Source: Gracilaria domingensis
Taxonomy: Eukaryota; Rhodophyta; Florideophyceae; Gracilariales; Gracilariaceae
Assembly (NCBI GenBank): GCA_022539475.1
Contig: VCMS01000316.1
Span: forward strand, 1-49,170
Direction: 5' to 3'
Length of the DNA stretch: 49,170 nt
A program made the position numbers and the translations under genes. Shown here in pieces: positions 5,337-46,147 of the stretch. Under the pieces are notes generated by a model. The model did not search any database. It saw only the letters and a program-made list of their open reading frames with translations, and was not told the origin of the DNA. Every line of letters starts with the position of its first letter. Position 1 is the stretch's first letter.

Positions 5337-6253
5337 TGCTCCGAGCATGTAACACATAACAACCTCTCGGAGCACCATTAATCACAGTACTTCAACCAGA
5401 CATGCAAACACACGCAACCTTCTGATTCAAGACCGATTTTCTGAACACCGGACATGCAACAAGTAGCAACCTTCCAGTTCAACATCACCTTCGTAACAGC
5501 TGGACATGCAAAAGAGAGCAACCTTCCAGCTCAACAAATCTCTTCAAACAGCGGACATCAAAATCACAGCAACCTTCCGCGAATAACACACAAAGAGAAT
5601 TGCAACACAGGCATCCTGGACTTGCAAAATGACAACCTTCCAGGCCCCGTCCATACAAAGTGATGTCCTACACACTCAGGCATGAAACACTCAACTCCTG
5701 AGTCAATTAGCTCTTTCATTCACACCGGACATGCAAACACATAGCAAACTTCCAGTGACAACAAACTGAAACAAAGAGCAAAACAAACATCACAAGCAAT
5801 GAAACAAACACTCAGGCATGAAACACTCAACCTCCTGAATCGAACAGCTCTTCCATAACCAGGACATGCATACATGTAACAACCTTCTGGTAACATGAGA
5901 ACAACATGGAGAGCAAAACACACATCACAAGTGATCAATAATACACTCAGGCATGAAACACTCAACCTCCTGAGTCAAACAGCTCTTCCATACACACCGG
6001 ACATGCAACCAAATAGCAACCTTCCGGTACAACAGAAGTAAAGCGAAGAGCACAGCACACATCCCGGGCATACATAACGACAACCTTCTGAGCCTGCGTA
6101 AGGAAGTCACGATAACAACGGACAAGTAACATCGCAACTTTCCAAAGTTGATACAAAGAAGAGCTCAGACATGTTCAACAACAAACACCCAGGAAGTGTC
6201 ATAAACGAATCTCACACACACAGTCTCAGGCAGGAAACACTCCACCTCCTGAA
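5337..6253 (-). repeat. Hairpin array with conserved loop (element C)
   Basis: Thirteen clear inverted repeats in about 0.9 kb, at (plus coordinates) about 5337-5374, 5394-5427, 5447-5478, 5499-5531, 5553-5580, 5608-5643, 5675-5705, 5726-5757, 5811-5841, 5858-5893, 5945-5975, 5995-6029 and 6225-6253, plus one or two weak ones. In sense, each is a 5-9 bp stem, then AGGTTG, 4-9 variable bases, (T)TGCATG or TCATG, and the matching stem strand. The stems differ in sequence but stay paired. No coding frame spans the array. An RNA structure bound by a protein is likely, but its function is unknown. Confidence 0.85.
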
Positions 6254-7374
6254 CTGTAGCGAGAATAACAACAACAAACTGCAAGCGATCGGGTGCATAA
6301 GGAACTAAGATTCCTGGTACCCTAGGGAGTCGGACCCCTGACCCCCGGAGACCCTCCGGGTAGGAAACGACTTTCTTCTGTCTACCTCCTCCTGCGTTCC
6401 AGGAGAAGGCGCGTCGCTCTCTACGAGACGTCCAGAGGATGGTTAGTGACCAAAGATATGCCTTCACCAAGTTAAACCCTCTCTGGTCTCTTGCAAGAAC
6501 TTGCGCGACCCTGATACTGCAGGTACTATGACAAACCGAGGTACGCTTCCAGCAAGCAAACAATCAAGTTCACAAGCGGCCTGATCCTGAAAAGGAGGTC
6601 AGCCTACGACACGTCGCCTCCCCGCACCACCGCAGCAGTACGGATCAAAAGCTCGTTTCAGTTTGTCTTCCCAACAGATCAAGAACCCAACACACAGTCA
6701 GGTCACACACAACAAAGGTGAACCACCCCTGTTCGATGCAGTACGTCACGGCACCCCGTCAACTTCAGCACTCGCGGTACTACCAGGTCTTCCGACCGAC
6801 ACCGTTATCTGCCCCGAAGGACCGGTGGGAGCCCGCTCGACAGCGCGTCCGAATTGGTTCAAGCCGCCAGACTAACGTCCCCGATTGCTCGGATCAACCG
6901 CTCGTCGCACCGAAACCCAAGTGATCACCACAAATGCCGAGCACACAGGCAGTGCCCGGACTTCAACGAAAAAACGAATGCTGAGCACAACACACAAGTG
7001 CACAGACTTCAACGACAACGGTACTCAACCCCTCGGATCAGAACCCGCAAACACGACACGGGGATCACAACAACGAAAACAGAGGCGAGAAACCAACAAA
7101 GCGGATAGCGATCGACGAAAACGAAAATGAACTAGAAACCAAACAGAATCACGAAAGTAGAACAGCGTCGAGCCACTACCACCACAACGCCCTCAGGGAG
7201 GAACGCAAACCAAAAGGGAAATACAACACCACCAAACCGGTCAATGACAAGAAACACGACGGAGAAAAAACATCGAAAACATCAACAACGGCGTTCAACA
7301 ACACGGACGGCGGTGAGGGAGAGCGGCGGAAAGGGAAACCTCATGACGAACGACAAACGGCAGAGGTCAGCGGG
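6254..7374 (-). other. Leader of element C, homologous to the family 1 leader
   Basis: Matches the family 1 leader along most of its length: the GGAATCTTAGTTCC and CCCGGAG...CTCCGGG hairpins, the GGTGAAGGCATATCTT block, and the segment next to the primer site. Several blocks are replaced or shortened near the PBS. A 132-codon open frame (6165-6563) overlaps it but is not maintained in family 1 and is taken as chance. Confidence 0.72.
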
Positions 7375-8858: not shown

Positions 8859-9829
8859 TGCTCCGAGCATGTAACACATAACAACCTCTCGGAGCACCAT
8901 TAATCACAGTACTTCAACCAGACATGCAAACACACGCAACCTTCTGATTCAAGACCGATTTTCTGAACACCGGACATGCAACAAGTAGCAACCTTCCAGT
9001 TCAACATCACCTTCGTAACAGCTGGACATGCAAAAGAGAGCAACCTTCCAGCTCAACAAATCTCTTCAAACAGCGGACATTCAAAATCACAGCAACCTTC
9101 CGCGAATAACACACAAAGAGAATTGCAACACAGGCATCCTGGACTTGCAAAATGACAATTAGCTCTTCACACCGGACATGCAAACACATAGCAAACTTCC
9201 AGTGACACAAACTGAAACAAAGAGCAAACAAACATCACAAGCATGAAACAACACTCAGGCATGAAACACTCAACCTCCTGAATCGAACAGCTCTTCATAA
9301 CCAGGACATGCATACATGTAACAACCTTCTGGTAACATGAGGACAACATGGAGAGCATAACACACATCACAAGTGATCAATAATACACTCAGGCATGAAA
9401 CACTCAACCTCCTGAGTCAAACAGCTCTTCCATACCCAGGACATGCATACATGTAACAACCTACTGGTAACATGAGAACAACATGGAGAGCAAAACACAC
9501 ATCACAAGTGATCAATAATACACTCAGGCATGAAACACTCAACCTCCTGAGTCAAACAGCTCTTCCATACACACCGGACATGCAACAAATAGCAACCTTC
9601 CGGTACAACAGAAGTAAAGCGAAGAGCACAGCACACATCCCGGGCATACATAACGACAACCTTCTGAGCCTGCGTAAGGAAGTCACGATAACAACGGACA
9701 AGTAACATCGCAACTTTCCAAAGTTGATACAAAGAAGAGCTCAGACATGTTCAACAATAAACACCCAGGAAGTGTCATAAACGAATCTCACACACACAGT
9801 CTCAGGCAGGAAACACTCCACCTCCTGAA
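8859..9829 (-). repeat. Hairpin array with conserved loop (element D)
   Basis: Homologous to the array in C. The strong 9-bp stem TGCTCCGAG/CTCGGAGCA opens it at 8859. The hairpin expected after about 9157 is deleted and its neighbour is broken. A 135-bp unit holding one CTCAGG-stem hairpin and one ACCAG-stem hairpin is present twice (units start at 9387 and 9522). The module number therefore changes while the loop motif stays. Confidence 0.83.
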
Positions 9830-10949
9830 CTGTAGCGAGAATAACAACAACAAACTGCAAGCGATCGGGTGCATAAGGAACTAAGATTCCTGGTACCCTA
9901 GGGAGTCGGACCCCTGACCCCCGGAGACCCTCCGGGTAGGAAACGACTTTCTTCTGTCTACCTCCTCCTGCGTTCCAGGAGAAGGCGCGTCGCTCTCTAC
10001 GAGACGTCCAGAGGATGGTTAGTGACCAAAGATATGCCTTCACCAAGTTAAACCCTCTCTGGTCTCTTGCAAGAACTTGCGCGACCCTGATACTGCAGGT
10101 ACTATGACAAACCGAGGTACGCTTCCAGCAAGCAAACAATCAAGTTCACAAGCGGCCTGATCCTGAAAAGGAGGTCAGCCTACGACACGTCGCCTCCCCG
10201 CACCACCGCAGCAGTACGGATCAAAAGCTCGTTTCAGTTTGTCTTCCCAACAGATCAAGAACCCAACACACAGTCAGGTCACACACAACAAAGGTGAACC
10301 ACCCCTGTTCGATGCAGTACGTCACGGCACCCCGTCAACTTCAGCACTCGCGGTACTACCAGGTCTTCCGACCGACACCGTTATCTGCCCCGAAGGACCG
10401 GTGGGAGCCCGCTCGACAGCGCGTCCGAATTGGTTCAAGCCGCCAGACTAACGTCCCCGATTGCTCGGATCAACCGCTCGTCGCACCGAAACCCAAGTGA
10501 TCACCACAAATGCCGAGCACACAGGCAGTGCCCGGACTTCAACGAAAAAACGAATGCTGAGCACAACACACAAGTGCACAGACTTCAACGACAACGGTAC
10601 TCAACCCCTCGGATCAGAACCCGCAAACACGACACGGGGATCACAACAACGAAAACAGAGGCGAGAAACCAACAAAGCGGATAGCGATCGACGAAAACGA
10701 AAATGAACTAGAAACCAAACAGAATCACGAAAGTAGAACAGCGTCGAGCCACTACCACCAAACGCCCTCAGGGAGGAACGCAAACCAAAAGGGAAATACA
10801 ACACCACCAAACCGGTCAATGACAAGAAACACGACGGAGAAAAAACATCGAAAACATCAACAACGGCGTTCAACAACACGGACGGCGGTGAGGGAGAGCG
10901 GCGGAAAGGGAAACCTCATGACGAACGACAAACGGCAGAGGTCAGCGGG
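9830..10949 (-). other. Leader of element D
   Basis: Nearly identical to the leader of C, including the paired hairpins and the block next to the PBS. No gene seen. Confidence 0.7.
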
Positions 10950-11954: not shown

Positions 11955-11984
11955 CCTCACTCTGCAACTGTTCAGTGACTCTGC

Positions 11985-13630: not shown

Positions 13631-14415
13631 TGATAGAGGTTGAAGCTGAAAGGGAAGGTTGAAGAAAGGATGGGGAATGAAGGGAAGTTCGCCAGCTCTG
13701 GCTCGGAATTTACTTGGAGGCGCTCGAGTCACCGCTTATATAGAACTACTTTGCGACACCATCGCACAACTCCAACTCCAAGCATTACCTAAACCACCAG
13801 CTAGAGACACTCAATACTACCAATCATCTTCTAACATAACATGGTAACACTGCCACACTATCATGACAGCTTACAACAACAAAGCACAACAACGCACAAC
13901 AGTGCACAACCGTGCACATCAAGTTACGTGCCTACACATAACCATGACCATGCACAGATTCACATAGTGCCAACACACTGTAATCCGTACCTGCCACCAT
14001 AACAGTTACGTACAAGCTCACCAACTAACACGTCACCACAAACTCACTCCAAGTCCTACGTCACCAACAATACCACAGTGTAAACCTCTTGACAGCGCAT
14101 CTACTCTTCACCATAGTGCCAAAGTCACATGAAGCTGTCCTACATGTCCACGTACATACGTGTGTACCCTGTGCATCATGTACAGTATGCCCAGTGTACT
14201 AGCTACACACGTGTACCCCGGAAACAACCCATTAGCGCCACAACACTTGTACAAACCACAATGCATATGACCATTTGCAGTAGCCAATCAGAAGCCCGTT
14301 TCACGTTGAGTTTGCGCAGAGGCGCATATGCGCTTTTCCAACGGCACCCTCCAAAACAGCCCATGCTCCCCAGCACTTTTGGTTTTCAGTGACAGCACAG
14401 GGTCAACATCCAACA
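13631..14415 (-). repeat. Family 1 LTR, 3' LTR of element A
   Basis: 785 bp with TGATAGAGG...CATCCAACA ends on the plus strand. The outer flank is the interrupted family 2 LTR. Confidence 0.94.
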
Positions 14416-14428
14416 CCCCCCCTCTGTC
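14416..14428 (-). promoter_or_regulatory. Polypurine tract of element A
   Basis: Sense GACAGAGGGGGGG directly before TGTTGGATG, 8 bp after the pol stop codon. Confidence 0.85.
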
Positions 14429-14435
14429 ACTGACT

Positions 14436-17400
14436 TCAAACTTCTATGTGGATCACACCACCGGCTTCGCGGAACCTCTCGTGCTTCACTCGCGCAAGCG
14501 GCTTATTCAGCATGTCGGCAACCATGGAATCCGTCGGGCAGTAGAACAGCACAATCGACTTGGCCTGCAGAGCTTCTCGAGTGAAGTGGAACCGAATTTC
14601 AATATGCTTGGTTCGCCTGTTCACCACTCCATTTCGAGCAAGGTCAATGCTGCCCTGGTTGTCAACATACATGGGAGTTGGTTCAACCAGCAGCTTTACA
14701 GACCCGTCTGCTTCCATGCCAATCACACTGCCAATGCCGTTCCAAAGTCGCCTAAGCCAGATCGCCTCCTTGGTGCCAGAGCACAAGCTCACGTACTCAG
14801 CCTCCGCACTCGACAGAGCAACTACCTCCTGTTGACGAGACGACCACGACACAGCACCTCCGCACATCATGAACAAGTATCCACTAGTGGACTTGCGGTT
14901 GGCAACATCGCCAGCCCAGTCAGAGTCCACATAGCCGTGCAGTTGCAAATCGGTGCTGGAGCCATACGTCAACCCGAACGTGGTAGTGCCATTGAGGTAG
15001 CGAAGAACACGCTTGACCGCCTTCCACTGAGTGTTTCCCGGCTTCTCAACATACTTGGCCAGCTTAGCCACAGCATATGAGATGTCTGGACGAGTTCCCA
15101 CAGAGAGATACATGAGGCAGCCAATCGCCTGACGATACGGTACATGCGTGAGCACTTCCTCCTCAACAGACAAGTCCACACCGCACTCCATAGGAGTGTC
15201 AACGGGTTTCGACAGCTGCATGCCAAATCGCTCCAGGACCTTGTTCGTGTACGCTGACTGAGTCAAGTACAGCTCTCGCTTGGTTCTGTCTCGATGGATT
15301 TCAAATCCAAGAACCATGCGAGCTTCTTTGAGGTCCTTCATGCGGAAACGACTTGACAGCTCTGCCTTCACACGTTCCACGGTTTTCATGCTCGGACTCG
15401 CAATCAGCAAGTCGTCAACATACAGAGCAATGATAACCAAGAAACCCAGTATGATCCCGGTGTAGACACACTCGTCTGCGTCATTCGGCTTGAGGTGCAT
15501 TTCACCAACAAGGAAGGCGTATATCTTGGCGTGCCACTGTCTTGGTGCTTGTCTAAGCCCATAGATCGCTTTCTTCAGTCGGCACACCAAGTCCTCCTTT
15601 CCCTGCTGTGTGAATCCCATTGGCTGCTCCATGTACACTGTCTCGTCAAGGTCACCGTTCAGAAAGGCAGTCTTCACATCCATCTGGTGCAAGTGGAAGT
15701 CTCGTACGGCAGTCACTGACAGGATCATTCTGATGGATGTGAACTTCACCACAGGTGCATAAGTCTCTGAGAAGTCCACACCCTCGATCTGCAGGAAACC
15801 TCTTGCAACCACACGAGCCTTGTAACGCACTGTCGGTTCACCAGATGACGAAGCCTCATACTTTGTACATACACCCACTTGGACGAAATCACGTTGCTGT
15901 CTGCTGGCCTTGGCACTAGATCCCATGTGTCATGCTCCATCAATGACTCGTACTCACTCTTCATCGCCTTCTTCCAAGCTTCGGAATCAGGACGTGACAC
16001 TGCGTCACCGTACGACGAAGGAGTATCATCACTGGCTGTAAGGAAAGCACTGGCACCACGCCACCACGAGGATGGCGTCTTTCTCTGACGTGTGGATCTA
16101 CGAAGGGGCTGCGTCTCTGTCACTTCCGGCTCATCTTGTGGAACTGGTGTGGTGTCTTCATCCGTACTGGCATTCGTGGTACTCTCATGAGAAGCTGGTG
16201 CAGAAGGATCATCTTCAGAATGATCGGCGGATGTGTCGGAGGTTGGGGCTTCAGCAGATACCGACTTGTCGACCAAGTCGATATCCGCATAGTCCTCGTC
16301 TTCAGAGTGCTCGTCACTTTCAGTTGCAGAGCACTCGTCAAACCTCACATCTCGTGACACAATCACCTTCTTCTTCTGGCTGTCCCACAACTTGTACCCG
16401 TGGGAGCCTGAAGTGTACCCAATGAAGATGGCCTCCACTGCACGCTCTTCCAGCTTCTTCAACTTGTGATCAACCACCTTGTACCAGCAATGGCTACCAA
16501 ACACACGCAGATTGCTCAGATCAGGCTTCTGTCCATGCCACAGCTCAAACGGCGTCACGTCACTCGGAAGCGCTTTGCAGGTCACTCTGTTGCGCACATA
16601 CACAGAAACATTCAGAGCCTCAGCCCAAAAGCTTTTTGGCACATTCTTGTGATGCAACATTGACCTGACCAAGTCCATGAGTGTGCGGTTGAACCTCTCG
16701 GCAAGCCCGTTCTGCTGTGGATTATAAGGCACAGTTCGCTGATGCTCAATACCGTACTGCTCAAGCTTTTCGGAGAACCGATTGGACAAGTACTCACCAC
16801 CATTGTCAGTGCGTAATGCACGCAACACACTCTTGCGAGCGGTGATGGTTAACACTTTCCTGCCCATCTGGTTCTCCACAAACCTGAGCCACTTGATGAA
16901 CATCCGGAACACCTCATCCTTCGTCTTGAGCATGTACAAGAAGCAGTAGCGGCTGTGGTCATCGATGAATGTGACAAAGTAGTGCGAGCCTCCCAAGGAC
17001 TTCACGTTCACTGGACCCGATATATCAGAGTGTACCAGGTCCAGTACGTGTTCAGCTCGTTCCCCCCCTTGCTTGGGAGTCGGAGCACGGGTTGCTTTGC
17101 CCACTACACAAGAGCCACACACATCCAGCTTCTGAGCCACATCCACATTCAGACCTGACACAACACCGTTTCGAGCCATCTGCTTGATGCCTTCCACATT
17201 CACATGAGCCATTCGAGCATGCCAAAGAGACAAGTCTGACACAAGCGCACTGTCCGTGTCCGTGAACTGATCTGCAGCAGTGCAAAGGTAGTACAGGTCT
17301 TTGACGCGGCGCCCAACGGCAACCACTTTTGACCCCTTGTACACACATACCTTTTCTTTGTCAAACACTACCGTGCAGCCCAGATCACAAATCTGTGACA

Positions 17401-18469
17401 CAGACAACAAATGGTACCGTAAGTTGGGCACGTGTACCACCTGCCTTAGCTTGCACTTACGCTTGGACCCTTCAACTGTCAGATCGAGCTCCACACTTCC
17501 GTGACCAACAGACTGCAACTTGGAATCATTGCCGATGCTCACACCCGACGACACCTTTGTCTCGTACGTTTGGAACATTGAGTCGTCATAAGTCATGTGC
17601 GCAGTAGCTCCAGAGTCAACAATCCAGTCACTGTTAGTGGCCTTGTCGGCACCATTCGCAATGAGGCATACAAAGTCAGAATCGCTGCCGCCCGTACCTT
17701 GCTCATCGTTGAGCGCGGTATGTACACTTGGGTGAGCAGCATCGATCTGATCCTTGTTAGCCCCATCACGTTGCTTTTTGAAACAGTTCTTCTGGATATG
17801 ACCCTTTATGCCACAATAGTAACACACAACCGACTTCAATGACTTCCTACGAAACTGGCGTCCCAAGAGTGCAGCATCACCACCGGACTCCTCCTTGGCA
17901 CGATCACTCATACGTTGCTCTTCTTGCAATAGACGGCTCTTCACAAACTCCATGGTGAGTTCGCGATCTCCGATCGTGGTGTCAATTGCAACAATGAGGT
18001 GCTCAAAACGATCCGGAAGTCCACATAGGGCAGCCATAGCAATGTCCTCTTCTTCAACGTTGACGTCCATACTCTTGAGGTCGGAGGCCAAGTGCCGAAC
18101 ACGATTGATGAATTGCAACATCTTCTCGTCCTCGCGCATTTTGACAGAGTAGAAAGCACGTCTGGCGTTGATTCGGTTCAGAAGAGTCTTACGTTGAAAC
18201 ACATTGCAAATGGCCTTCCATGCGTCAGCAGCAGTCTCGATGTCTCGAATGTGATCCAAGTGCTCGTCGGCAAGCGTGAGTCCAATGATAGCTCTAGCCC
18301 TTTCGTCGCGGATTTGCCACTTTACCAGTTCCTCTTCATCCGTGGGTGCAGAAGTGGTGAGATGGTTCTTGAGGTCTTTCAGTGCAAGTACATACTGAAT
18401 CTTCTGCTTCCAAGTATGGAAGTTATCCTCACCCAACTTCTCGATCTTGAGCCCACTAAACGAGTCCAT
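14436..18469 (-). CDS. gag-pol: copia Gag-Pol polyprotein, one frameshift (element A)
   Basis: About 1344 codons from ATG at 18469 to TGA at 14436. Order of domains: Gag 1-210; CCHC knuckle 216-229 (CYYCGIKGHIQKNC); protease DSGA 285-288; integrase zinc domain H417, H422, C451, C454; integrase core D482 (HSDISGP), D555 (RTDNGGEY), E591 (NGLAERFN); acidic serine-rich linker about 760-830; RT from about 880 with YVDD at 1017-1020; RNase H with SDWAGD and SSAEAEY; end IHIEV. Capsid, cleavage, cDNA synthesis and integration are all represented, with all catalytic residues visible. One C is missing near 15863 (catactttgtac against catacttctgtac in G), which moves RT into another frame. The break falls between integrase and RT, but G and H lack it, so it is a mutation or sequence error, not a family-wide programmed shift. 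Confidence 0.93.
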
Positions 18470-19694
18470 GATGTAAGAGAGGAACTGCAGCGAACCAGAT
18501 AATGCGGTGGCAGACAGGCGGCAATAGCAAACGACAGCGGTAAACAACAACAGCAAACAACAACAAACAACAAACAACAATAACAACAAACAACAACAAC
18601 AATAAAGATGAATAGTCGGGTGCAAAAGGAACTAAGATTCCTGGTACCCTAGGGAGTCGGACCCCTGACCCCCGGAGACTCTCCGGGTAAGAAACGACTT
18701 CTGCAGTCTACCTCCTCCTGCGTTCTAGGAGAAGGTGCGTCGCTCTCTACGAGACTTCCAGAGGATGGTTAATGACCGAAGATATGCCTTCACCAAGTAA
18801 AACCCTCTCTGGTCTCTTGCAAGAACTTGCGCGACCCTGAAACTGCAGGTACTATGACAAACCGAGGTACGCTTCTAGCAAGCAAACAATGAAGTTCACA
18901 AGCGGCCTGATCCTAAAAAGGAGGTCAGCCTACGACACGTCGCCTCCCCGCACCACCGAAGCAGTACGGATCAAAAGCTCGTTTCAGTTTGCCTTCGCCA
19001 CAGATCAAGAACCCAACACAAAGTCAGGTCAGCAACAATAAAGGTGGACCACCTCCTGTCCAGTGCAGTACGTCACGGCACCCCGTCCACAAATGCCCCC
19101 GCGAAGAATACCAGGTCTTTCGACCGACACCGTTATCTGCCCCTAAGGACCGGTGGGAAACTCGCAAGACGGAACAAATGCTTTGGTTCAAGCCGCCAGA
19201 CTAACGTCCCCGATTGCTCGGATCAACCGCTCGTCGCACCGAAACTCAAGTGATCACCACACCTGCCGAGCACACACGCAGTGCACGGACTTCAACAGAA
19301 ACGAATGCTGAGCACAACACACAAGTGCACAGACTTCAACAACACAAGGTCCTCAACCTCTCGGATCAGAACCCACAAAGACGACGTGGGGATCCCAACA
19401 ATAATAACAGAGGGAGACCAAACGAAGCGGATAGCGATCGACAACACGGGCAACAACGAGCGCCCAAACACAATCACGATAGAAAGTCAACGTCGAACCA
19501 CCACCAACAAAACGCCCTCAGGGAGGAACGAACGACCGAAAGAAGAAAGTCAACACCGACCAACGATACGGTCAACACACCCGACGCAACGGAGAAGGGA
19601 ACGAAAGGGAAAACAGCGAAGCGGATGAACGGCGGTGAGGGAGAGCGGCAAGAATCAGCGGCGAGAGGGAACGATAACGGCAGAGGTCAGCGGG
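18470..19694 (-). other. Leader of element A
   Basis: Same layout as in B: TTG tract 18543-18602, then paired hairpins and the conserved GGTGAAGGCATATCTTCGG block. No gene seen. Confidence 0.72.
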
Positions 19695-19709
19695 GCTGGG
19701 CCCATAACC
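19695..19709 (-). promoter_or_regulatory. Primer-binding site of element A
   Basis: GCTGGGCCCATAACC abutting the LTR at 19710, complementary to the initiator tRNA-Met anticodon arm. Confidence 0.9.
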
Positions 19710-20495
19710 TGATAGAGGTTGAAGCTGAAAGGGAAGGTTGAAGAAAGGATGGGGGAATGAAGGGAAGTTCGCCAGCTCTGGCTCGGAATTTACTTGGAGG
19801 CGCTCGAGTCACCGCTTATATAGAACTACTTTGCGACACCATCGCACAACTCCAACTCCAAGCATTACCTAAACCACCAGCTAGAGACACTCAATACTAC
19901 CAATCATCTTCTAACATAACATGGTAACACTGCCACACTATCATGACAGCTTACAACAACAAAGCACAACAACGCACAACAGTGCACAACCGTGCACATC
20001 AAGTTACGTGCCTACACATAACCATGACCATGCACAGATTCACATAGTGCCAACACACTGTAATCCGTACCTGCCACCATAACAGTTACGTACAAGCTCA
20101 CCAACTAACACGTCACCACAAACTCACTCCAAGTCCTACGTCACCAACAATACCACAGTGTAAACCTCTTGACAGCGCATCTACTCTTCACCATAGTGCC
20201 AAAGTCACATGAAGCTGTCCTACATGTCCACGTACATACGTGTGTACCCTGTGCATCATGTACAGTATGCCCAGTGTACTAGCTACACACGTGTACCCCG
20301 GAAACAACCCATTAGCGCCACAACACTTGTACAAACCACAATGCATATGACCATTTGCAGTAGCCAATCAGAAGCCCGTTTCACGTTGAGTTTGCGCAGA
20401 GGCGCATATGCGCTTTTCCAACGGCACCCTCCAAAACAGCCCATGCTCCCCAGCACTTTTGGTTTTCAGTGACAGCACAGGGTCAACATCCAACA
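19710..20495 (-). repeat. Family 1 LTR, 5' LTR of element A
   Basis: 786 bp. It holds a TATA box TATATAAG (plus 19815-19822). Transcription would start roughly 30 bp further along the minus strand, leaving a short R/U5 of about 80 bp (inference). No AATAAA is seen. Confidence 0.94.
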
Positions 20496-23234: not shown

Positions 23235-23276
23235 TAAAGTACGAACGCAGGTTAGACAGTAGAAGGAAAGAGTGAC
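23235..23276 (-). repeat. Family 3 LTR remnant of element J
   Basis: taaagtacgaacgcaggtta matches the family 3 LTR end (taacgtaacgaacgcaggtt). Only about 42 bp remain before the 5' LTR of element E. Confidence 0.7.
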
Positions 23277-24267
23277 TGTTGGAAGTCATGCTGTCACTGA
23301 CATCAAGCAGTTGAGATGTGTGGAGTCTAGAATGGTACCTTGATACGTGAAACCGAGATTGATGTTGTTCTGTTTGGTATACTACGTTGCTGTGTGGTAT
23401 ACTCAGTATGGGTTGAACGTTTATGGCTACACTGGAACGCTATCGTTCAGCTGGGATGACCACAAGGTACAACGATGACAGGTTGTACAGTGGTCATGAA
23501 GTACGGGTTGAAGGCTATGTATGTGCACACAAGGTACAGGTGGCAGCACTGTCAGTGTTGTGAAGTTTACACCATGTTTGAGTTGTGCTACATGCAAATG
23601 TGTGTGTATGGATGAATGGAACATGTTGCAGCTAAGTGACTGACGTCATGTGGTTTACAGGTACTTGTTGATGATGTGGGACTTGGGTATCTGGCACGTA
23701 CACATTACGGTGTGGTGTACAGATTACAGCGTGCCAGCAACACGTGAAGTGTGATGTGATGTTCCGTAAGCATGGCTGGTCATGATGGTGAGGTGTTGCA
23801 TTGTGTGTATGCATGGTCGTGTTACTATGGTGGCTGTCATATTGTTGACTGCGTTGATGTGTGGTGCTCGTGGTGTGCTGTAGAAATGTGTCGGTACACT
23901 GTCAGGGACGTGCATGGCTACTACATTGGTGTGCATTGTTGTGCATTGTTGTGCACTGCTGTGCAGTAGTGTACTGAATTGTTGTGCACTGTTGTACACT
24001 GTTGTGCGTTGTTGTGCACTGCTGTTGTAAGCAGTTTGGCACTGTTACCATGTTATGTCTGTAGATGATTGGTAGTATTGAGTGTCTCTGGTTAGTGAGT
24101 TGCATGTTGGTCAGAGTTGGAGTCGCATGATGGAGTAGCGAAGAAGTGCTATATAGGTTGTGACTCAAGCACCTCCAAGTAAATATGAGCCAGAGCTGGC
24201 GAACTTCCCTTGCATCCCCCCATCCTTCCTCATGTCAACTTTCCGATCCCAGCTATAACCTCTAACA
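23277..24267 (+). repeat. Family 2 LTR, 5' LTR of element E
   Basis: 991 bp, TGTTGGAAGTC...CTCTAACA. TATA-like TATATAGG at 24150-24157. The inverted repeat GCCAGAGCTGGC at 24189-24200 lies in the predicted transcribed part. GTGCAC-type repeats lie at about 23935-24025. Confidence 0.93.
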
Positions 24268-24282
24268 GGTTATGGGCCCAGC
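24268..24282 (+). promoter_or_regulatory. Primer-binding site of element E
   Basis: GGTTATGGGCCCAGC directly after the LTR, the reverse complement of the initiator tRNA-Met anticodon arm. Confidence 0.88.
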
Positions 24283-25397
24283 CCCGCTGACCTCTGCCGT
24301 TGTCGTTCGTCTGAGGTTTCCCTTTCCGCCGCTCTCCCTCACCGCCGACCGTGTTGTTGAACGCCGTTGTTGATGTTTTCGATGTTTTTTCCGTCGTGTT
24401 TCTTGTCGTTGACTGGTTTGGTGGTGTTGTATTTCCCTTTTGGTTTGCGTTCCTCCCTGAGGGCGTTGTGGTGGTAGTGGTTCGACGCTGTTCTACTTTC
24501 GTGATTCTGTTGGTTTCTGTTCATTTTCGTTTTCGTCGATCGCTATCCGCTTTGTTGGTTTCTCGCCTCTGTTTTCGTTGTTGTGATCCCCGTGTCGTGT
24601 TTGCGGGTTCTGATCCGAGGGGTTGAGTACCGTTGTCGTTGAAGTCTGTGCACTTGTGTGTTGTGCTCAGCATTCGTTTTTTCGTTGAAGTCCGGGCACT
24701 GCCTGTGTGCTCGGCATTTGTGGTGATCACTTGGGTTTCGGTGCGACGAGCGGTTGATCCGAGCAATCGGGGACGTTAGTCTGGCGGCTTGAACCAATTC
24801 GGACGCGCTGTCGAGCGGGCTCCCACCGGTCCTTCGGGGCAGATAACGGTGTCGGTCGGAAGACCTGGTAGTACCGCGAGTGCTGAAGTTGACGGGGTGC
24901 CGTGACGTACTGCATCGAACAGGGGTGGTTCACCTTTGTTGTGTGTGACCTGACTGTGTGTTGGGTTCTTGATCTGTTGGGAAGACAAACTGAAACGAGC
25001 TTTTGATCCGTACTGCTGCGGTGGTGCGGGGAGGCGACGTGTCGTAGGCTGACCTCCTTTTCAGGATCAGGCCGCTTGTGAACTTGATTGTTTGCTTGCT
25101 GGAAGCGTACCTCGGTTTGTCATAGTACCTGCAGTATCAGGGTCGCGCAAGTTCTTGCAAGAGACCAGAGAGGGTTTAACTTGGTGAAGGCATATCTTTG
25201 GTCACTAACCATCCTCTGGACGTCTCGTAGAGAGCGACGCGCCTTCTCCTGGAACGCAGGAGGAGGTAGACAGAAGAAAGTCGTTTCCTACCCGGAGGGT
25301 CTCCGGGGGTCAGGGGTCCGACTCCCTAGGGTACCAGGAATCTTAGTTCCTTATGCACCCGATCGCTTGCAGTTTGTTGTTGTTATTCTCGCTACAG
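24283..25397 (+). other. Leader of element E
   Basis: Homologous to the family 1 leader and near-identical to C and D. Hairpin CCCGGAGGGTCTCCGGG is at 25291-25307. No gene supported. Confidence 0.72.
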
Positions 25398-26311
25398 TTC
25401 AGGAGGTGGAGTGTTTCCTGCCTGAGACTGTGTGTGTGAGATTCGTTTATGACACTTCCTGGGTGTTTGTTGTTGAACATGTCTGAGCTCTTCTTTGTAT
25501 CAACTTTGGAAAGTTGCGATGTTACTTGTCCGTTGTTATCGTGACTTCCTTACGCAGGCTCAGAAGGTTGTCGTTATGTATGCCCGGGATGTGTGCTGTG
25601 CTCTTCGCTTTACTTATGTTGTACCGGAAGGTTGCTATTTGTCTGCATGTCCGGTGTGTACGGAAGAGCTGTTTGACTCAGGAGGTTGAGTGTTTCATGC
25701 CTGAGTGTATTATTGATCACTTGTGATGTGTGTTTTGCTCTCCATGTTGTTTCATGTTACCGAGGTTGTTACATGTATGCATGTCTGGTTATGGAAGAGC
25801 TGTTCGATTCAGGAGGTTGAGTGTTTCATGCCTGAGTGTTTGTTTCATTGCTTGTGATGTTTGTTTTGCTCTTTGTTTCAGTTTGTTGTCACTGGAAGTT
25901 TGCTATGTGTTTGCATGTCCGGTGTGAATGAAAGAGCTATTGACTCAGGAGGTTGAGTGTTTCATGCCTGAGTGTGTAGGACATCACTTTGTATGGACGG
26001 GGCCTGGAAGGTTGTCATTTTGCAAGTCCAGGATGCCTGTGTTGCAATTCTCTTTGTGTGTTATTCGCGGAAGGTTGCTGTGATTTTGCATGTCCGCTGT
26101 TTGAAGAGATTTGTTGAGCTGGAAGGTTGCTCTCTTTTGCATGTCCAGCTGTTACGAAGGTGATGTTGAACTGGAAGGTTGCTACTTGTTGCATGTCCGG
26201 TGTTCAGAAAATCGGTCTTGAATCAGAAGGTTGCGTGTGTTTGCATGTCTGGTTGAAGTACTGTGATTAATGGTGCTCCGAGAGGTTGTTATGTGTTACA
26301 TGCTCGGAGCA
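25398..26311 (+). repeat. Hairpin array with conserved loop (element E)
   Basis: Sense-strand copy of the array. Clear members: 25398-25426, 25623-25655, 25676-25706, 25807-25837, 25891-25923, 25943-25973, 26003-26032, 26067-26097, 26117-26150, 26170-26201, 26221-26254, 26274-26311, with weaker ones at 25506-25533 and 25758-25790. Stem pairs include ACTCAGG/CCTGAGT, AGCTGGA/TCCAGCT, CCTGGA/TCCAGG, GCGGA/TCCGC, ACCGGA/TCCGGT and TGCTCCGAG/CTCGGAGCA. The loop starts AGGTTG and ends in CATG, usually GCATG. A further inverted repeat TCTAGA...TCTAGA (26328-26358) may be an eroded member. Confidence 0.87.
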
Positions 26312-26412
26312 ACATTCGTTTTCGGTGTCTAGAATGTGGTCACTTGTGGACGTCTAGATCCCTTTTGTGAAGGACTCTGAGGTGCATTTTGGTTCCGAGA
26401 GAAGTTCAAAGC

Positions 26413-26434
26413 CAGTGAGAGAGGGAGGGTGTCA
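26413..26434 (+). other. Internal polypurine-tract-like sequence (element E)
   Basis: AGTGAGAGAGGGAGGGTGTC, a near copy of the terminal PPT/LTR junction. A second lies at about 26543-26560 (GTGACAAAAGGAGGGTG). The TG positions after the tracts are 26430, 26559 and 26790. Confidence 0.5.
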
Positions 26435-26776
26435 GAGTAACATCCTCAGACTTAGGCTCTCACTGTCTGTTGTTGATATCTGTTTGAACCGGAAGCTGTT
26501 GTCTTCGTTGCCATACGAAGGATGAGTAAGAAGTTCAGAGTGTGTGACAAAAGGAGGGTGTTTCCAGAACATCCGAATCGTACAGAACAGAACTATGATC
26601 TTGGTATACTGGTAGAACGGTACAGCCGTGGGCTTGGACACACACTAACTGCACTTGATGTTTGGTTGTCACCGTTGGCCATCGTAAGGTTTATTTGCAG
26701 TAACATTGGTTTCTTGACTGCCCGACTTGTTACTTAGCATGTACTTGACCAGGAGCGCTGGTTGCTTGAAGTCAGT

Positions 26777-26789
26777 AACAGAGGGAGGG
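26777..26789 (+). promoter_or_regulatory. Polypurine tract of element E
   Basis: AACAGAGGGAGGG immediately before the 3' LTR start TGTTGGAAG. Confidence 0.82.
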
Positions 26790-27316
26790 TGTTGGAAGTC
26801 ATGCTGTCACTGACATCAAGCAGTTGAGATGTGTGGAGTCTAGAATGGTACCTTGATACGTGAAACCGAGATTGATGTTGTTCTGTTTGGTATACTACGT
26901 TGCTGTGTGGTATACTCAGTATGGGTTGAACGTTTATGGCTACACTGGAACGCTATCGTTCAGCTGGGATGACCACAAGGTACAACGATGACAGGTTGTA
27001 CAGTGGTCATGAAGTACAGGGTTGAAGGCTATGTATGTGCACACAAGGTACAGGTGGCAGCACTGTCAGTGTTGTGAAGTTTACACCATGTTTGAGTTGT
27101 GCTACATGCAAATGTGTGTGTATGGATGAATGGAACATGTTGCAGCTAAGTGACTGACGTCATGTGGTTTACAGGTACTTGTTGATGATGTGGGACTTGG
27201 GTATCTGGCACGTACACTCTACGGTGTGGTGTACAGATTACAGCGTGCCAGCAACACGTGAAGTGTGATGTGATGTTCCGTAAGCATGGCTGGTCATGAT
27301 GGTGAGGTGTTGCATT
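26790..27316 (+). repeat. Family 2 LTR, 3' LTR of element E, part before the gap
   Basis: Matches the first 527 or so bases of the 5' LTR closely, up to ggtgaggtgttgcatt, where the N occurs. Confidence 0.85.
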
Positions 27317-27317
27317 N
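27317..27317. other. Assembly gap (single N)
   Basis: One ambiguous base. The sequence after it repeats LTR sequence already present before it (acacgtgaagtg and ggtcatgatggtgaggtg on both sides), so this is a join between contigs or reads, not a single unknown base. Confidence 0.9.
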
Positions 27318-27908
27318 ACTCTATCATCGTGTTACGGATTTACAGATGCAAGCAAACACGTGAAGTGTGGGTGTTATGTTATCGGTAAGTATGTCTGGTC
27401 ATAATGGTGAGGTGCAGCTTGTGTGTATGCCTGGTCCGCGTTGCTATGGTCTGGCTGTCATAATTGTTGATGCAGTGAGGTGTGTGGTCTTGTGGTGGTC
27501 CCTGTCGAAATGTGTCGGTACATCTGTCACGGGACGTGTACGGCTACATACATTGGTGTGTGCATTGGTGATGCATTGCTGTGACTGCTGCAAGTAGTGT
27601 ACGGGAATTTGTTGTGCACGTGTTGTACACTGTTGTGCGTTGTTGTGCGACTGCTGTTGTAAGCAGATTTTTGGCACTGTTCCGATGTAATGTGCGATTA
27701 GATGATTGTAGTATGTGAGTGTCTTGGGTTCTGTTGAGTTTTGCATGTTGTTCAGAGTTGGAGTCGCATGATAGAGTAGCGAAGTAGTGGTATATAAGTT
27801 GTTGACCAAGCACCTCCAAAGTAAAATCTAGCCAGAGCTGGCGAAGCTCCTTGCATAGTCCCGCACCTCCCATGTCAACTTTTCGATTCCCAGCTATAAG
27901 CTCTAACA
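27318..27908 (+). repeat. Family 2 LTR 3' part after the gap, error-rich
   Basis: Recognisable to the end ctataagctctaaca, but with many scattered extra or missing bases compared with all other copies (for example gatttttggcact). It probably comes from a low-quality read or another copy. Confidence 0.75.
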
Positions 27909-40059: not shown

Positions 40060-40843
40060 TGTTGGATGTTGACCTGTGCTGTCACTGAAAACCAAAAGTG
40101 CTTGAGAGCATATGCTGTTTTGGAGGGTGCCGTTGGAAAAGCGCATATGCGCCTCTGCGCAAACTCAACGTGAAACGGGCTTCTGATTGGCTACTGCAAA
40201 TGGTCATATGCATTGTGGTTGGTACAAGTGTTGTGGCGCTAATGGGTTGTTTCCGGGGTACACGTGTGTAGCTAGTACACTGGGGATACTGTACATGATG
40301 CAGAGGGTACACACGTATGTTCGTGGACATGTAGGACAGCTTGGTGTAACTTGGGCACTATGGTGAAGAGTTGATGCCGTGTCAAGAGGATTACAGTGTG
40401 GTGTTGTTGGTGACGTAGGACTTGGAGTGAGTTTGTGGTGAAGTGTTGTTGGTGAGCTTGTACGTAACTGTTATGGTGGCGTGTAGGGATTACAGTGTGT
40501 TGGCACTATGTGAATCTGTGCATGGTCATGGTTATGTGTAGGCACGTAACTTGATGTGCACGGTTGTGCAGTGTTGTGCGTTGTTGTGCTTTGTTGTTGT
40601 AAGCTGTCATGATAGTGTGGGATTGTTACGATGTTATGTTAGAAGATGATTGGTAGTATTGAGTGTCTCTAGCTAGTGGTTTTGGTATTGCTTGGAGTTG
40701 GAGGTTTGCGATGGTTGCGCAAAGTAGTTCTATATAAGCGGTGACTCGAGCACCTCCAAGTAAATTCTGAGCCAGAGCTGGCGAACTTCCCTTCATTCCC
40801 CTATCCTTTCTTCAACCTTCCCTTTCAGCTTCAACCTCTATCA
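40060..40843 (+). repeat. Family 1 LTR, 5' LTR of element H
   Basis: 784 bp. TATA box TATATAAG at 40731-40738 and inverted repeat GCCAGAGCTGGC at 40771-40782. It carries a U3 variant (gcttgagagcatatgctg) unlike that of A. Confidence 0.92.
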
Positions 40844-40858
40844 GGTTATGGGCCCAGC
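40844..40858 (+). promoter_or_regulatory. Primer-binding site of element H
   Basis: GGTTATGGGCCCAGC directly after the LTR. Confidence 0.88.
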
Positions 40859-42087
40859 CCCGCTGACCTCTGCCGTTATCGTTTCCTCTCGCCGCTGATT
40901 CTCGCTGCTCTCCCTCACCGCCGTTCATCCGCTTCGCTGTTTTCCGTTTCGTTCCCTTCTCCGTTGCGTCGGGTGTGTTGACCGTATCGTTGGTCGGTGT
41001 TGACTTTCTTCTTTCGGTCGTTCGTTCCTCCCTGAGGGCGTTTTGTTGGTGGTGGTTCGACGTTGACTTTCTATCGTGATTGTGTTTGGGCACTCGTTGT
41101 TGCCCGTGTTGTCGATCGCTATCCGCTTCGTTTGGTCTCCCTCTGTTATTATTGTTGGGATCCCACGTTGTCTTTGTGGGTTCTGATCCGAGAGGTTGAG
41201 GACCTTGTGTTGTTGAAGTCTGTGCACTTGTGTGTTGTGCTCAGCATTCGTTTCTGTTGAAGTCCGTGCACTGCGTGTGTGCTCGGCAGGTGTGGTGATC
41301 ACTTGAGTTCGGTGCGACGAGCGGTTGATCCGAGCAATCGGGGACGTTAGTCTGGCGGCTTGAACCAAAGCATTTGTTCCGTCTTGCGAGTTTCCCACCG
41401 GTCCTTAGGGGCAGATAACGGTGTCGGTCGAAAGACCTGGTATTCTTCGCGGAGGCATTTGTGGACGGGGTGCCGTGACGTACTGCACTGGACAGGAGGT
41501 GGTCCACCTTTATTGTTGCTGACCTGACTTTGTGTTGGGTTCTTGATCTGTGGCGAAGGCAAACTGAAACGAGCTTTTGATCCGTACTGCTTCGGTGGTG
41601 CGGGGAGGCGACGTGTCGTAGGCTGACCTCCTTTTCAGGATCAGGCCGCTTGTGAACTTCATTGTTTGCGTGCTAGAAGCGTACCTCGGTTTTTCATAGT
41701 ACCTGCAGTTTCAGGGTCGCGCAAGTTCTTGCAAGAGACCAGAGAGGGTTTTACTTGGTGAAGGCATATCTTCGGTCATTAACCATCCTCTGGAAGTCTC
41801 GTAGAGAGCGACGCACCTTCTCCTAGAACGCAGGAGGAGGTAGACTGCAGAAGTCGTTTCTTACCCGGAGAGTCTCCGGGGGTCAGGGGTCCGACTCCCT
41901 AGGGTACCAGGAATCTTAGTTCCTTTTGCACCCGACTATTCATCTTTATTGTTGTTGTTGTTTGTTGTTATTGTTGTTTGTTGTTGTTTGTTGTTGTTGT
42001 TTGCTGTTGTTGTTTACCGCTGTCGTTTGCTATTGCCGCCTATCTGCCACCGCATTATCTGGTTCGCTGCAGTTCCTCTCTTACATC
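40859..42087 (+). other. Leader of element H
   Basis: Sense hairpins CCCGGAGAGTCTCCGGG (41864-41880) and GGAATCTTAGTTCC (41910-41923), with CCCTAGGG between (41897-41904). The conserved GGTGAAGGCATATCTTCGG block is near 41757. The TTG tract is at 41948-42013. No gene. Confidence 0.75.
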
Positions 42088-45000
42088 ATGGACTCGTTTA
42101 GTGGGCTCAAGATCGAGAAGTTGGGTGAGGATAACTTCCATACTTGGAAGCAGAAGATTCAGTATGTACTTGCACTGAAAGACCCTCAAGAACCATCTCA
42201 CCAGTTCTGCACCCACGGATGAAGATGAACTGGTAAAGTGGCAAATCCGCGACGAAAGGCCAGAGCTATCATTGGACTTGTCTCACGCTTGCCGACGAGC
42301 ACTTGGATCACAGTCGAGACATCGAGACTGCTGCTGACGCATGGAAGGCCATTTGCAATGTGTTTCAACGTAAGACTCTTCTTAACCGAATCAACGCCAG
42401 ACGTGCCTTCTACTCTGTCAGGATGCGCGAGGACGAGAAGATGTTGCAATTCATCAACGTGTTCGGCACTTGGCTTCCGACCTCAAGAGTATGGATGTCA
42501 ACATTGAAGAAGAGGACATTGCTATGGCCGCTCTATGTGGACTTCCGGAACGTTTCGAACACCTCATTGTTGCAATTGACACCACGATCGGAGATCGGCA
42601 ACTCACTATGGAGTTTGTGAAGAGCCGTTGTTGCAAGAAGAGCAACGTATGAGTGATCGTGCCAAGGAGGAGTCCGGTGTTGATGCTGCACTCGTGGGAC
42701 GCCAGTTTCGTAGGAAGTCATTGAAGTCGGTTGTGTGTTACTATGGTGGCATAAAGGGTCATATCCAGAAGAACTGTTTCAAGAAGCAACGTGATGGGGC
42801 CAACAAGGATCAGATCGATGCTGCTCACCCAAGTGTACATACCGCGCTCAACGATGAGCAAGGTACGGGCGGCAGCGATTCTGACTTTGTATGCCTCATT
42901 GCGAATGGTGCCGACAAGGCCACTAACAGTGACTGGATTGTTGACTCTGGAGCTACTGCGCACATGACTTATGATGACTCAATGTTCCAAACGTACGAGA
43001 CAAAGGTGTCTTCGGGTGTGAGTATCGGCAATGATTCCAAGTTGCAGTCTGTTGGTCACGGAAGTGTGGAGCTCGATCTGACAGTTGAAGGGTCCAAGCG
43101 TAAGTGCAAGCTAAAGCAGGTGGTACACGTGCCCAACTTACGGTACCACTTTGTTGTCTGTGTCACAGATTTGTGATCTGGGCTGCACGGTAGTGTTTGA
43201 CAAAGAAAAGGTATGTGTGTACAAGGGGTCAAAAGTGGTTGCCGTTGGGCGCCGCGTCAAAGACCTGTACTACCTTTGCACTGCTGCAGATCAGTTCACG
43301 GACACGGACAGTGCGCTTGTGTCAGACTTGTCTCTTTGGCATGCTCGAATGGCTCATGTGTGAATGTGGAAGGCATCAAGCAGATGGCTCGAAACGGTGT
43401 TGTGTCAGGTCTGAATGTGGATGTGGCTCAGAAGCTGGATGTGTGTTGCTCTTCTGGGGTGGGCAAAGCAACCCGTGCACCGACTCCCAAGCAAGGGGGG
43501 GAACGAGCTGAACACGTACTGGACCTGGTACACTCTGATATATCGGGGTCCAGTGAACGTGAAGTCCTTGGGAGCTCGCACTACTTTGTCACATTCATCG
43601 ATGACCACAGCCGCTACTGCTTCTTGTACATGCTCAAGACGAAGGATGAGGTGTTCCGGATGTTCATCAAGTGGCTCAGGTTTGTGGAGAACCAGATGGG
43701 CAGGAAAGTGTTAACCATCACCGCTCGCAAGAGTGTGTTGCGTGCATTACGCACTGACAATGGTGGTGAGTACTTGTCCAATCGGTTCTCCGAAAAGCTT
43801 GAGCAGTACGGTATTGAGCATCAGAGAACTGTGCCTTATAATCCACAGCAGAACGGGCTGGCCGAGAGGTTCAACCGCACACTCATAGACTTGGTCAGGT
43901 CAATGTTGCATCACAAGAATGTGCCAAAAAGCTTTTGGGCTGAGGCTCTGAATGTCTCTGTGTATGTGCGCAACAGAGTGACCTGCAAAGCGCTTCCGAG
44001 TGACGTGACGCCGTTTGAGCTGTGGCATGGACAGAAGCCTGATCTGAGCAATCTGCGTGTGTTTGGTAGCCGTTGCTGGTACAAGGTGTTGATCACAAGT
44101 TGAAGAAGCTGGAAGAGCGTGCAGTGGAGCCATCTTCATTGGGTACACTTCAGGCTCCCACGGGTACAAGTTGTGGACAGCCAGAAGAAGAAGGTGATTG
44201 TGTCACGAGATGTGAGGTTTGACGAGTGCTCTGCAACTGAAAGTGACGAGCACTCTGAACACGAGGACTACGCGGATATCGACTTGGTCGACAAGTCGGG
44301 AGCTGCTGAAGCCTCAACCTGTGACACATCCACCGATGATTCTGAAGATGATCCTTCTGCACCAGCTTCTCATGAGAGTACCTCGAATGCCAGTACGGAT
44401 GAACACACCACACCAGTCCACAAGATGAGCCGGAAGTGACAGAGACGCAGCCCCTTCGTAGATCCACACGTCAGAGAAAGACGCCATCCTCGTGGTGGCG
44501 TGGTGCCAGTGCTTTCCTTACAGCCAGTGATGATACTCCTTCGTCGTACGGTGACGCAGTGTCACGTCCTGATTCCGAAGCTTGGAAGAAGGCGATGAAG
44601 AGTGAGTATCAATCGTTGATGGAGCACGACACGTGGGATCTAGTGCCAAGGCCAGCAGACAGCAACGTGATTTCGTCCAAGTGGGTGTATGTACAGAAGT
44701 ATGAGGCTTCGTCATCTGGTGAACCGACAGTGCGTTACAAGGCTCGTGTGGTTGCGAGAGGCTTCCTGCAGATCGAGGGTGTGGACTTCTCAGAGACTTA
44801 TGCACCTGTAGTGAAGTTCACATCCATCAGAATGATCTGTCTGTGACTGCCGTGCGAGACTTCACTTGCACCAGATGGATGTGAAGACTGCCTTTCTGAA
44901 CGGTGACCTTGACGAGACAGTGTACATGGAGCAGCCAATGGGATTCACACAGCAGGGAAAGGAGGACTTGGTGTGCCGACTGAAGAAAGCGATCTATGGG

Positions 45001-46127
45001 CTTAGACAAGCACCAAGACAGTGGCACGCCAAGATATACGCCTTCCTTGTTCGTGAAATGCACCTCAAGCCGAATGACGCAGACGAGTGTGTCTACACCG
45101 GGATCATACTAGGTTTCTTGGTTATCATTGCTCTGTATGTTGACGACTTGCTGATTGCCAGTCCGAGCATGAAAACCGTGGAACGTGTGAAGGCAGAGCT
45201 GTCAAGTCGTTTCCGCATGAAGGACCTCAAAGAAGCTCGCATGGTTCTTGGATTTGAAATCCATCGAGACAGAACCAAGCGAGAGCTGTATTTGACTCAG
45301 TCAGCGTACACGAACAAGGTTTTGGAGCGATTTGGCATGCAGCTGTCGAAACCCGTTGACACTCCTATGGAGTGCGGTGTGGACTTGTCTGTTGAAGAGG
45401 AAGTGCTCACGCATGTACCGTATCGTATCGTCAGGCGATTGGCTGCCTCATGTATCTCTCTGTGGGAACTCGTCGAGACATCTCATATGCTGTGGCTAAG
45501 CTGGCCAAGTATGTTGAGAAGCCAGGAAAAACTCACTGGAAGGCGGTCAAGCGTGTTCTTCGCTATCTCAATGGCACTACCACGTTCGGGTTGACGTATG
45601 GCTCCAGCACCGATTTGCAACTGCACGGCTATGTGGGCTCTGACTGGGCTGGCGATGTTGCCAACCGCAAGTCCACTAGTGGATACTTGTTCATGTTGTT
45701 CGGTGGTGCTGTGTCGTGGTCGTCTCGTCAACAGGAGGTAGTTGCTCTGTCGAGTGCAGAGGCTGAGTACGTGAGCTTGTGCTCTGGCACCAAGGAGGCG
45801 ATCTGGCTTAGGCGACTTTGGAACGGCATTGGCAGTGTGATTGGCATGGAAGCAGACGGGTCTGTAAAGCTGCTGGTTGAACCAACTCCCATGTATGTTG
45901 ACAACCAGGGCAGCATTGACCTTGCTCGAAATGGAGTGGTGAACAGGAGAACCAAACACATTGGGATTTGGTTCCACTTCACTCGAGAAGCTCTGCAGGC
46001 CAAGTCGATTGTACTGTTCTACTGCCCGACGGATTCCATGGTTGCCGACATGCTGAATAAGCCGCTTGCGCGAGTGAAGCACGAGAGGTTCCACGAAGCC
46101 GGTGGTGTGATTCACATAGAAGTTTGA
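42088..46127 (+). pseudogene. gag-pol: Family 1 copia Gag-Pol with many frameshifts (element H)
   Basis: All domains of element A can be followed in order from ATG 42088 to TGA 46125-46127: Gag, knuckle (CYYGGIKGHIQKNC, second cysteine changed to glycine, near 42745), DSGA near 42944, integrase HHCC and DDE, RT with YVDDLLIAS near 45140, RNase H with SSAEAEY near 45755. At least nine one- or two-base indels (for example an extra C at about 42185, extra GT at about 43360, a lost G at about 44087) move it between frames, while the residues within each piece stay close to A. That pattern suggests sequence errors or very recent loss. The knuckle substitution would weaken zinc binding if real. Confidence 0.9.
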
Positions 46128-46134
46128 AGTCAGT

Positions 46135-46147
46135 GACAGAGGGAGGG
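46135..46147 (+). promoter_or_regulatory. Polypurine tract of element H
   Basis: GACAGAGGGAGGG before the LTR start at 46148, 7 bp after the pol stop. Confidence 0.85.

Follow-up and report, generated by a model that had tools for sequence, protein, structure and literature searches.

The gene-less element and its Copia partner

The 49,170-nucleotide stretch of Gracilaria domingensis DNA analyzed here (hereinafter, the window) is packed with nested LTR retrotransposons. One of these elements carries no genes and contains, in its interior, an array of hairpins. The principal features are the following (coordinates, strand, feature).

23277..24267, +, 5' LTR of the gene-less element, TGTTGG...CTCTAACA
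24268..24279, +, PBS GGTTATGGGCCC, the same sequence as in the autonomous Copia partner
24268..25384, +, non-coding leader of ~1.1 kb; identity to the autonomous Copia leader, ~83%
25395..26311, +, hairpin array of ~0.9 kb, units U1-U15
26312..26789, +, 3' non-coding region with three polypurine-tract-like blocks, the last of which, AGAGGGAGGG, adjoins the 3' LTR
26790..27908, +, 3' LTR: 26790-27316 nearly the same as in the 5' LTR, followed by an N (27317) and an 83%-identical part
13631..20495, -, Copia partner, copy 1: LTRs 99.9% identical; Gag, integrase and reverse transcriptase; no hairpin units
40060..46932, +, Copia partner, copy 2: 97% identical to copy 1; one chance-level match to the covariance model (43424-43461, E=0.23)
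5337..6256, -, second copy of the array, found with the covariance model
8859..9832, -, third, rearranged copy of the array, found with the covariance model

The gene-less element possesses the features that define a non-autonomous LTR retrotransposon, namely LTRs with the TG...CA ends, a polypurine tract and a PBS, which is presumably complementary to the anticodon region of the initiator tRNA-Met. An ORF scan of 24268-26789 detected no gag-pol coding capacity: the longest ORF overlapping this region is 132 amino acids and starts from TTG, and the longest one within the array is 70 amino acids; with no credible ORF, a coding function for the array was rejected. The proposal of an earlier note on this DNA, that the array takes the place of gag-pol in a gene-less retrotransposon, is thus borne out by the LTRs, the PBS, the polypurine tract and the lack of a gag-pol ORF. 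As judged from its sequence, the element is a non-autonomous LTR retrotransposon of the LARD/TRIM type. The scan of the window for tRNA and tmRNA genes yielded none.

The segments 23277-23802 and 26790-27316 of the two LTRs are 99.4% identical; where a target-site duplication would lie, this copy has GTGAC, 5' of the 5' LTR, and GTGGT, 3' of the composite 3' LTR. The single N at 27317, past which the identity of the 3' LTR to the 5' LTR drops to 83%, reflects either the collapse of a gap or the composite nature of this LTR. Each of the three polypurine-tract blocks (26400-26432, 26529-26561 and 26766-26792) is followed by TGT and resembles the 3' terminus of the Copia partner.

The PBS, the leader and the 3' terminus are common to the gene-less element and the Copia partner. 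The homology of the leaders ends at 25384, and the array starts 11-14 bases farther on; beyond 25384, the homology is limited to the polypurine-tract blocks and the start of the LTR; the gene-less element's LTR matches the partner in its 3' part as well. The open frames of partner copy 1 match the Retrotran_gag_2, integrase and RVT_2 domains, with a marginal zf-CCHC match in the first frame (21.0 bits, compared with the cut-off of 20.8). In the genome, the gag regions of all 40 scored places (out of 188 candidates) are 99-100% identical, so the partner family looks young and abundant. The first Copia frame of the window has at least 81 relatives, of which nine are assigned to an organism, seven to Chondrus crispus (39-45% identity) and two to insects (28-34%); a transcript-derived protein among the relatives has 82% identity. 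Neither partner copy in the window contains a hairpin unit better than E=0.23 under the covariance model and, accordingly, these two copies provide no helper bearing the same hairpin that could be the source of the array. At 29350-29795, next to an RVT_2 frame, the window has a leader of a third lineage, with 86% identity to the gene-less element's leader; this lineage is possibly a closer helper family.

Architecture of the hairpin units

The array (25395-26311, plus strand) consists of 12 clear hairpins, an imperfect one (U6) and two degenerate ones (U2 and U3). The bit scores below come from a covariance model made from 13 units; all units are on the plus strand.

25395..25429, +, U1, 37.3 bits; inner stem GGA/TCC where the others have UGN/NCA
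25502..25537, +, U2, degenerate, 10.2 bits, E=1
25556..25591, +, U3, degenerate, 14.2 bits, E=0.051
25620..25658, +, U4, 47.9 bits
25674..25708, +, U5, 46.3 bits
25754..25792, +, U6, imperfect stem in this copy, 27.1 bits
25805..25839, +, U7, 44.1 bits
25888..25926, +, U8, 44.4 bits
25941..25975, +, U9, 46.3 bits
26000..26035, +, U10, 35.5 bits
26063..26101, +, U11, 40.2 bits
26115..26152, +, U12, 45.9 bits
26167..26204, +, U13, 47.7 bits
26219..26256, +, U14, 43.4 bits
26274..26311, +, U15, longest stem (9 bp), 47.3 bits; fold z -4.2

The count of twelve clear hairpins given in the earlier note is reproduced by a strict unit descriptor that was composed after the units had been seen, and all seven stem pairs listed there are present in the sequence. 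The single conserved loop that the note described has to be replaced: the constant part of the unit is an AGGU/UG internal loop together with a covarying 3-bp inner stem, and the apical loop is free to vary. The predicted unit, then, has a variable outer stem of 5-9 bp, continues through the 4x2 internal loop AGGU/UG into the 3-bp inner stem and is capped by an apical loop of 5-9 nt. The inner stem shows C-G, A-U, U-A and U-G pairs, with U-A replaced by G-C in U1. The sequence at the end of the loop is not always GCATG or TCATG, being GCAAG in the CCTGGA unit (U10) and ACATG in the last unit (U15). The hexamer UGCAUG, an RBFOX-type site, was rejected as the conserved element, given that U5, U7, U9 and U15 have UCAUG or ACAUG, U1 has CCUG and U10 has GCAAG.

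Neighboring hairpins are mostly 51-83 nt apart, with, in most cases, 52-63 or 83 nt between the cores, and 11 of the 13 units include the palindrome CATG. Both this quasi-regular spacing and the palindrome would suit an array that serves the RNA itself, through dimerization, as a scaffold or spacer, or by slowing or guiding reverse transcription. U1, however, trades CATG for CCTG and retains the inner pair via a double change, which indicates that it is the pairing, not the palindrome, that is preserved in this unit; a kissing role for CATG is therefore disfavored, and we consider a function confined to the RNA itself improbable.

The hairpin pattern is concentrated in the arrays. Within the window, the covariance model recovers the three arrays and otherwise has no match with E <0.2; the best weak matches outside the arrays, 43424-43461 (12.2 bits, E=0.23) and 32439-32482 (12.4 bits), were set aside as chance-level. 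With the descriptor, the density of units is 12.2 per kb across 38 arrays and 0.19 per kb in the rest of the window. The reverse strand of the arrays has, on average, 0 units, and none of 200 mononucleotide shuffles of one array has more than 3. A chance origin of the hairpin pattern is excluded. With 2.13 occurrences expected, the window has 33 instances of the pattern AGGTTG-N-CATG, five of which are a different motif in the LTR. These five correspond to the second arm of an inverted repeat in the LTR (23460-23505 and 26970-27015, TGACCAC...GTACAAC / GTTGTAC...GTGGTCA), which fits the hairpin loop pattern.

The Rfam comparison suggested in the earlier note was performed, and the array matches no family: the window has no match at the gathering score and, at E up to 5, the one match in 23200-28000 is to mir-3747, below threshold and located in the LTR.

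The pairs U4+U5, U6+U7 and U8+U9 form two-hairpin blocks, 131-136 bp apart, and the units, to go by their sequences, arose through duplication.

Copies of the array in the genome

The search of the genome (77.9 Mb in 680 contigs) identified the array in at least 40 places, this copy included (46 matches among the best 40 of 61 candidates), and at least 41 matches to the 3' region (best 40 of 81). A locus-level scan with the model covered 13 loci, with 150 of the 154 matches aligned. The number of units varies between copies: two of the three two-hairpin blocks are gone in copies L053, L056 and L057, and one additional block is present in L016, in a set of 23 chosen arrays. Some other copies have variants of U6 with better-paired stems than the one in this copy. 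Among the 38 distinct arrays used in the rate tests below, 27 are 944-954 nt long, a uniformity to be read with the fact that the copies lacking a 700-nt match, some with fewer units, are mostly outside this set. The copies are structurally uniform and have a conserved RNA structure, as is characteristic of the LARD/TRIM type.

Covariation among the units

For the analysis of covariation, the units of this copy were aligned one per row (alignment A1; 13 rows, 12 of them distinct), with U2 and U3 omitted as degenerate. The paired columns are complementary in 93.3% of the cells compared with 71.9% in shuffles (0 of 500 as high), in 9 of the 10 pairs both partners have changed (0 of 500 shuffles), and double changes are found in 30 of 120 cells, with 10.7 expected (again, 0 of 500); the number of pair types was equaled in a single shuffle of the 500. 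When the partner is shifted by 1-3 columns, pairing falls to 28-48%.

The earlier note pointed to the possibility that the covariation is lost once copies of the same unit are collapsed. Merging U5, U7 and U9 leaves 11 units, and merging both sets of duplicates leaves nine. The null model, run in 2000 simulations, places as many changes in each column as observed on a tree of the units; units this short give a weak tree, which limits the test. Under this model, the observed number of paired cells and the covariation score were never reached with 13, 11 or 9 units, and the count of pairs changed on both sides was reached 1, 3 and 9 times, respectively; the signal, therefore, persists at 11 and 9 units. 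Nor are the units decayed copies of one perfect inverted repeat, the other possibility raised in the note, because the paired double changes surround an unpaired core. The hairpin arms have changed in step, with pairing kept; therefore, the fold has been maintained by selection.

The pattern of wobble pairs bears on the strand. The 130 unit cells include 110 Watson-Crick pairs, 12 G-U pairs, no A-C and 8 others (four of these eight in U6), whereas changes from Watson-Crick pairs on the terminal branches of the copy tree yield 23 G-U and 21 A-C, the neutral expectation (Fisher p=0.002, with the cells of related units not fully independent). This 12:0 ratio in the units, compared with 23:21 on the terminal branches, points to sense-strand RNA as the form that was selected. 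A result that runs against this reading is that A-C cells are present in the count over all distinct rows, 120 rows in which old and new changes are mixed, with 105 G-U and 35 A-C.

Two alternatives to a selected sense-strand RNA have to be weighed against these data. Quasi-palindrome correction, that is, template switching, can create paired changes without selection and could, in principle, have produced the complementary arms. Such a process has no reason to favor G-U over A-C, would tend to pair up the unpaired AGGU/UG core and would not spare the outer stems on internal branches alone (see below), so that we regard it as very unlikely. The other alternative is selection on a DNA-level feature, such as a cruciform or a protein-binding site, or on the reverse-strand RNA. 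Inverted repeats are present on either strand, and the sense and reversed sequences fold nearly equally well in U1 (-10.2 and -10.1 kcal/mol) and in U15 (-17.8 and -16.0 kcal/mol). Against this stand the wobble asymmetry and the folding energies at large, the sense orientation being favored by 1.8 kcal/mol or more in 11 of the 12 units and U1 being about equal; this is the least probable of all the explanations considered here.

Selection across the array copies

Changes fixed during replication and those accumulated after insertion can be separated on the tree of the copies, where internal branches carry mostly the former and terminal branches mostly the latter, the tree being built on the premise of no recombination among copies. 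Of 59 stretches, 56 have an array match, and in 15 the best match is shorter than 700 nt; four of these 15 (L030, L031, L032 and L034) were taken into the test set. The 48 arrays collected, some places having been fetched twice, were reduced to 38 by dropping identical and contained ones; L018, L033, L036, L049-L053, L056, L057 and the third window copy were kept out. The rate tests did not include the columns of U2, U3 and U6.

In the 38 arrays, changes in the outer-stem columns number 12 on internal and 67 on terminal branches, compared with 159 and 214 elsewhere (odds ratio 0.25, p=3e-6). None of the 898 circular shifts of the outer-stem mask gives as low a value; this control becomes weaker, with one such shift, when the inner stem is added to the mask, and with four when the inner stem and the core are added. 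The inner stem (13 internal and 17 terminal changes) does not differ from the spacers (106 and 145; p=1.0), nor does the AGGU/UG core (13 and 28; p=0.23). A run on 25 arrays (the set of 23 chosen arrays minus L016, L018 and L019 plus five) goes in the same direction, with 12:54 in the outer stem and 81:122 in the spacers. Segmental copies shift some post-insertion changes onto the internal branches, an effect that runs against the outer-stem result. The outer stems, then, were selected during replication, and they are the one part of the unit for which continuing constraint is clear. The claim of a selected RNA fold made in the earlier note thus gains support from two sides, the covariation among the 13 rows under the tree null and the constraint on the outer stems in the copy tree.

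Predicted folding

Folding of the 15 stretches one by one gave z-scores of -1.5 to -4.2 for the 12 units with intact stems. In this unit-by-unit folding, also proposed in the note, the described fold is obtained in 10 of the 12 intact units (in U14, with one extra inner pair), the inner parts of U1 and U10 are paired otherwise, and U2, U3 and U6 of this copy fold no better than shuffles (z of -0.2, 1.7 and 1.1, respectively). In the lowest-energy fold of U1, the core is paired differently from the model. When the whole interior is considered, its predicted ensemble retains the outer stem of each of the 12 intact units, with mean probabilities of 0.72-0.99, and the inner stem of U1 is weak, with a probability of 0.3.

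Possible function of the array

How gene-less LTR elements gain access to the particles of another element is poorly understood, and their interiors are often taken as filler. The interior described here is a repeated, selected fold with a fixed core, so that each site is known with single-base precision and a direct search for the binding protein is feasible; furthermore, the element permits a clean contrast between changes at the time of replication and those after insertion.

The array is very probably a selected multivalent protein-binding module of one kind or another. As for the partner, we propose, with a probability of roughly 40%, that the array is a cis-acting multivalent module for packaging in trans, with the Gag of the Copia family as the likeliest ligand. 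Under this model, the transcript of the gene-less element would fold into ~13 small hairpins, each presenting the same asymmetric AGGU/UG internal loop between the outer and inner stems; this repeated core would be bound many times by one protein, most likely the zinc-knuckle nucleocapsid part of the Gag of the Copia family with which the element has the PBS, leader and 3' terminus in common; and the gene-less RNA would be packaged in trans, competing with the RNA of the helper by avidity. Helper Gag is favored because packaging is a step at which the RNA of a gene-less LTR element relies on another element and because small viruses are reported to use several stem-loops that share one motif as packaging signals; Gag packaging as the role of the array is, nevertheless, a tentative assignment.

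The simplest version, a Gag signal shared with the helper, has no support from homology because the two partner copies in the window lack hairpins. For the same reason, neither copy having a unit better than E=0.23, the partner Gag need not recognize the hairpins, and the packaging signal of the partner itself may lie within the common leader; this lack of units in the two copies is the chief argument against Gag. A variant that we entertain with similar reserve is that the array is a private RNA module, without a match in the two helper copies, that would capture helper Gag or a host carrier by avidity and outcompete the helper RNA, the tandem array having grown by duplication of units and compensatory evolution of the stems.

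The close rival to Gag is a host RNA-binding protein that many sites would jointly recruit for nuclear export of the intron-less, gene-less RNA, for its stability or for localization. That the two window partner copies are devoid of units, although the family encodes Gag, is compatible with such a protein, and the fixed core with variable stems would suit any single-protein target. However, no host locus with the motif came to light in the best 100 places of each search pattern. The two stem-anchored patterns occur 183 and 121 times in the genome (none in the reversed-pattern controls), and in these best 100 places per pattern, part of which were viewed individually, C43:143404 alone, a place among the best 100 of the 183 GGA-type ones, is outside the contig stretches known to carry the element, with ~0.6 isolated matches expected by chance (78 Mb, uniform bases). 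This isolated unit-like hairpin (L035:899-934, that is, C43:143398-143433) scores 17.3 bits and is not accompanied by an array. Recruitment of a host protein accordingly appears plausible but somewhat less likely than capture of Gag.

Comparison with known systems

The stem-loops of satellite tobacco necrosis virus each reportedly show one short motif to the coat protein, and psi of retroviruses and LTR retrotransposons is usually one compact region close to the 5' end. The array resembles psi in being a cis-acting RNA fold in a non-coding part and differs from it in being a 0.9-kb repeated array downstream of an intact long leader. With the packaging signals of hepatitis B virus (HBV) and satellite tobacco necrosis virus, it shares the multiple stem-loops with one short motif apiece. 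The respective reports describe several dispersed stem-loops in HBV, each with one short recognition motif for the core protein (PMC8677749, PMC7612645), and multiple dispersed packaging signals in the satellite virus (PMC3593212). In both viruses, the signals are dispersed over the genome, whereas here they are tandem and non-coding; in HBV, the motif is in the loop of the stem-loop, whereas in the array, known from its sequence and predicted fold, it is in the internal loop.

Like LARDs and TRIMs, for example, Cassandra, the element has LTRs, a PBS and a polypurine tract, no gag-pol and many similar copies; unlike them, it has an interior built as a modular array of ~13 paralogous hairpins, in which the stems covary and the internal loop is fixed. 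A packaging structure conserved as structure only has been suggested in the gene-less interior of a TRIM (PMC4558846), and conserved RNA structure in LTR elements without genes has already been published (PMC7215508), so the principle is not new. The statement in the earlier note that no described retrotransposon has such a module is narrowed accordingly: among the open-licence papers screened by title and opening of the abstract, no retrotransposon with an array of covarying-stem hairpins was found.

Finally, at 3865-11964 of the window, the gene-less element is arranged in tandem (LTR-interior-LTR-interior-LTR), and the clusters of copies on C161, C422 and C297 (4655-bp spacing) look like this arrangement; tandem arrays of this kind are known for Cassandra (PMC7215508).
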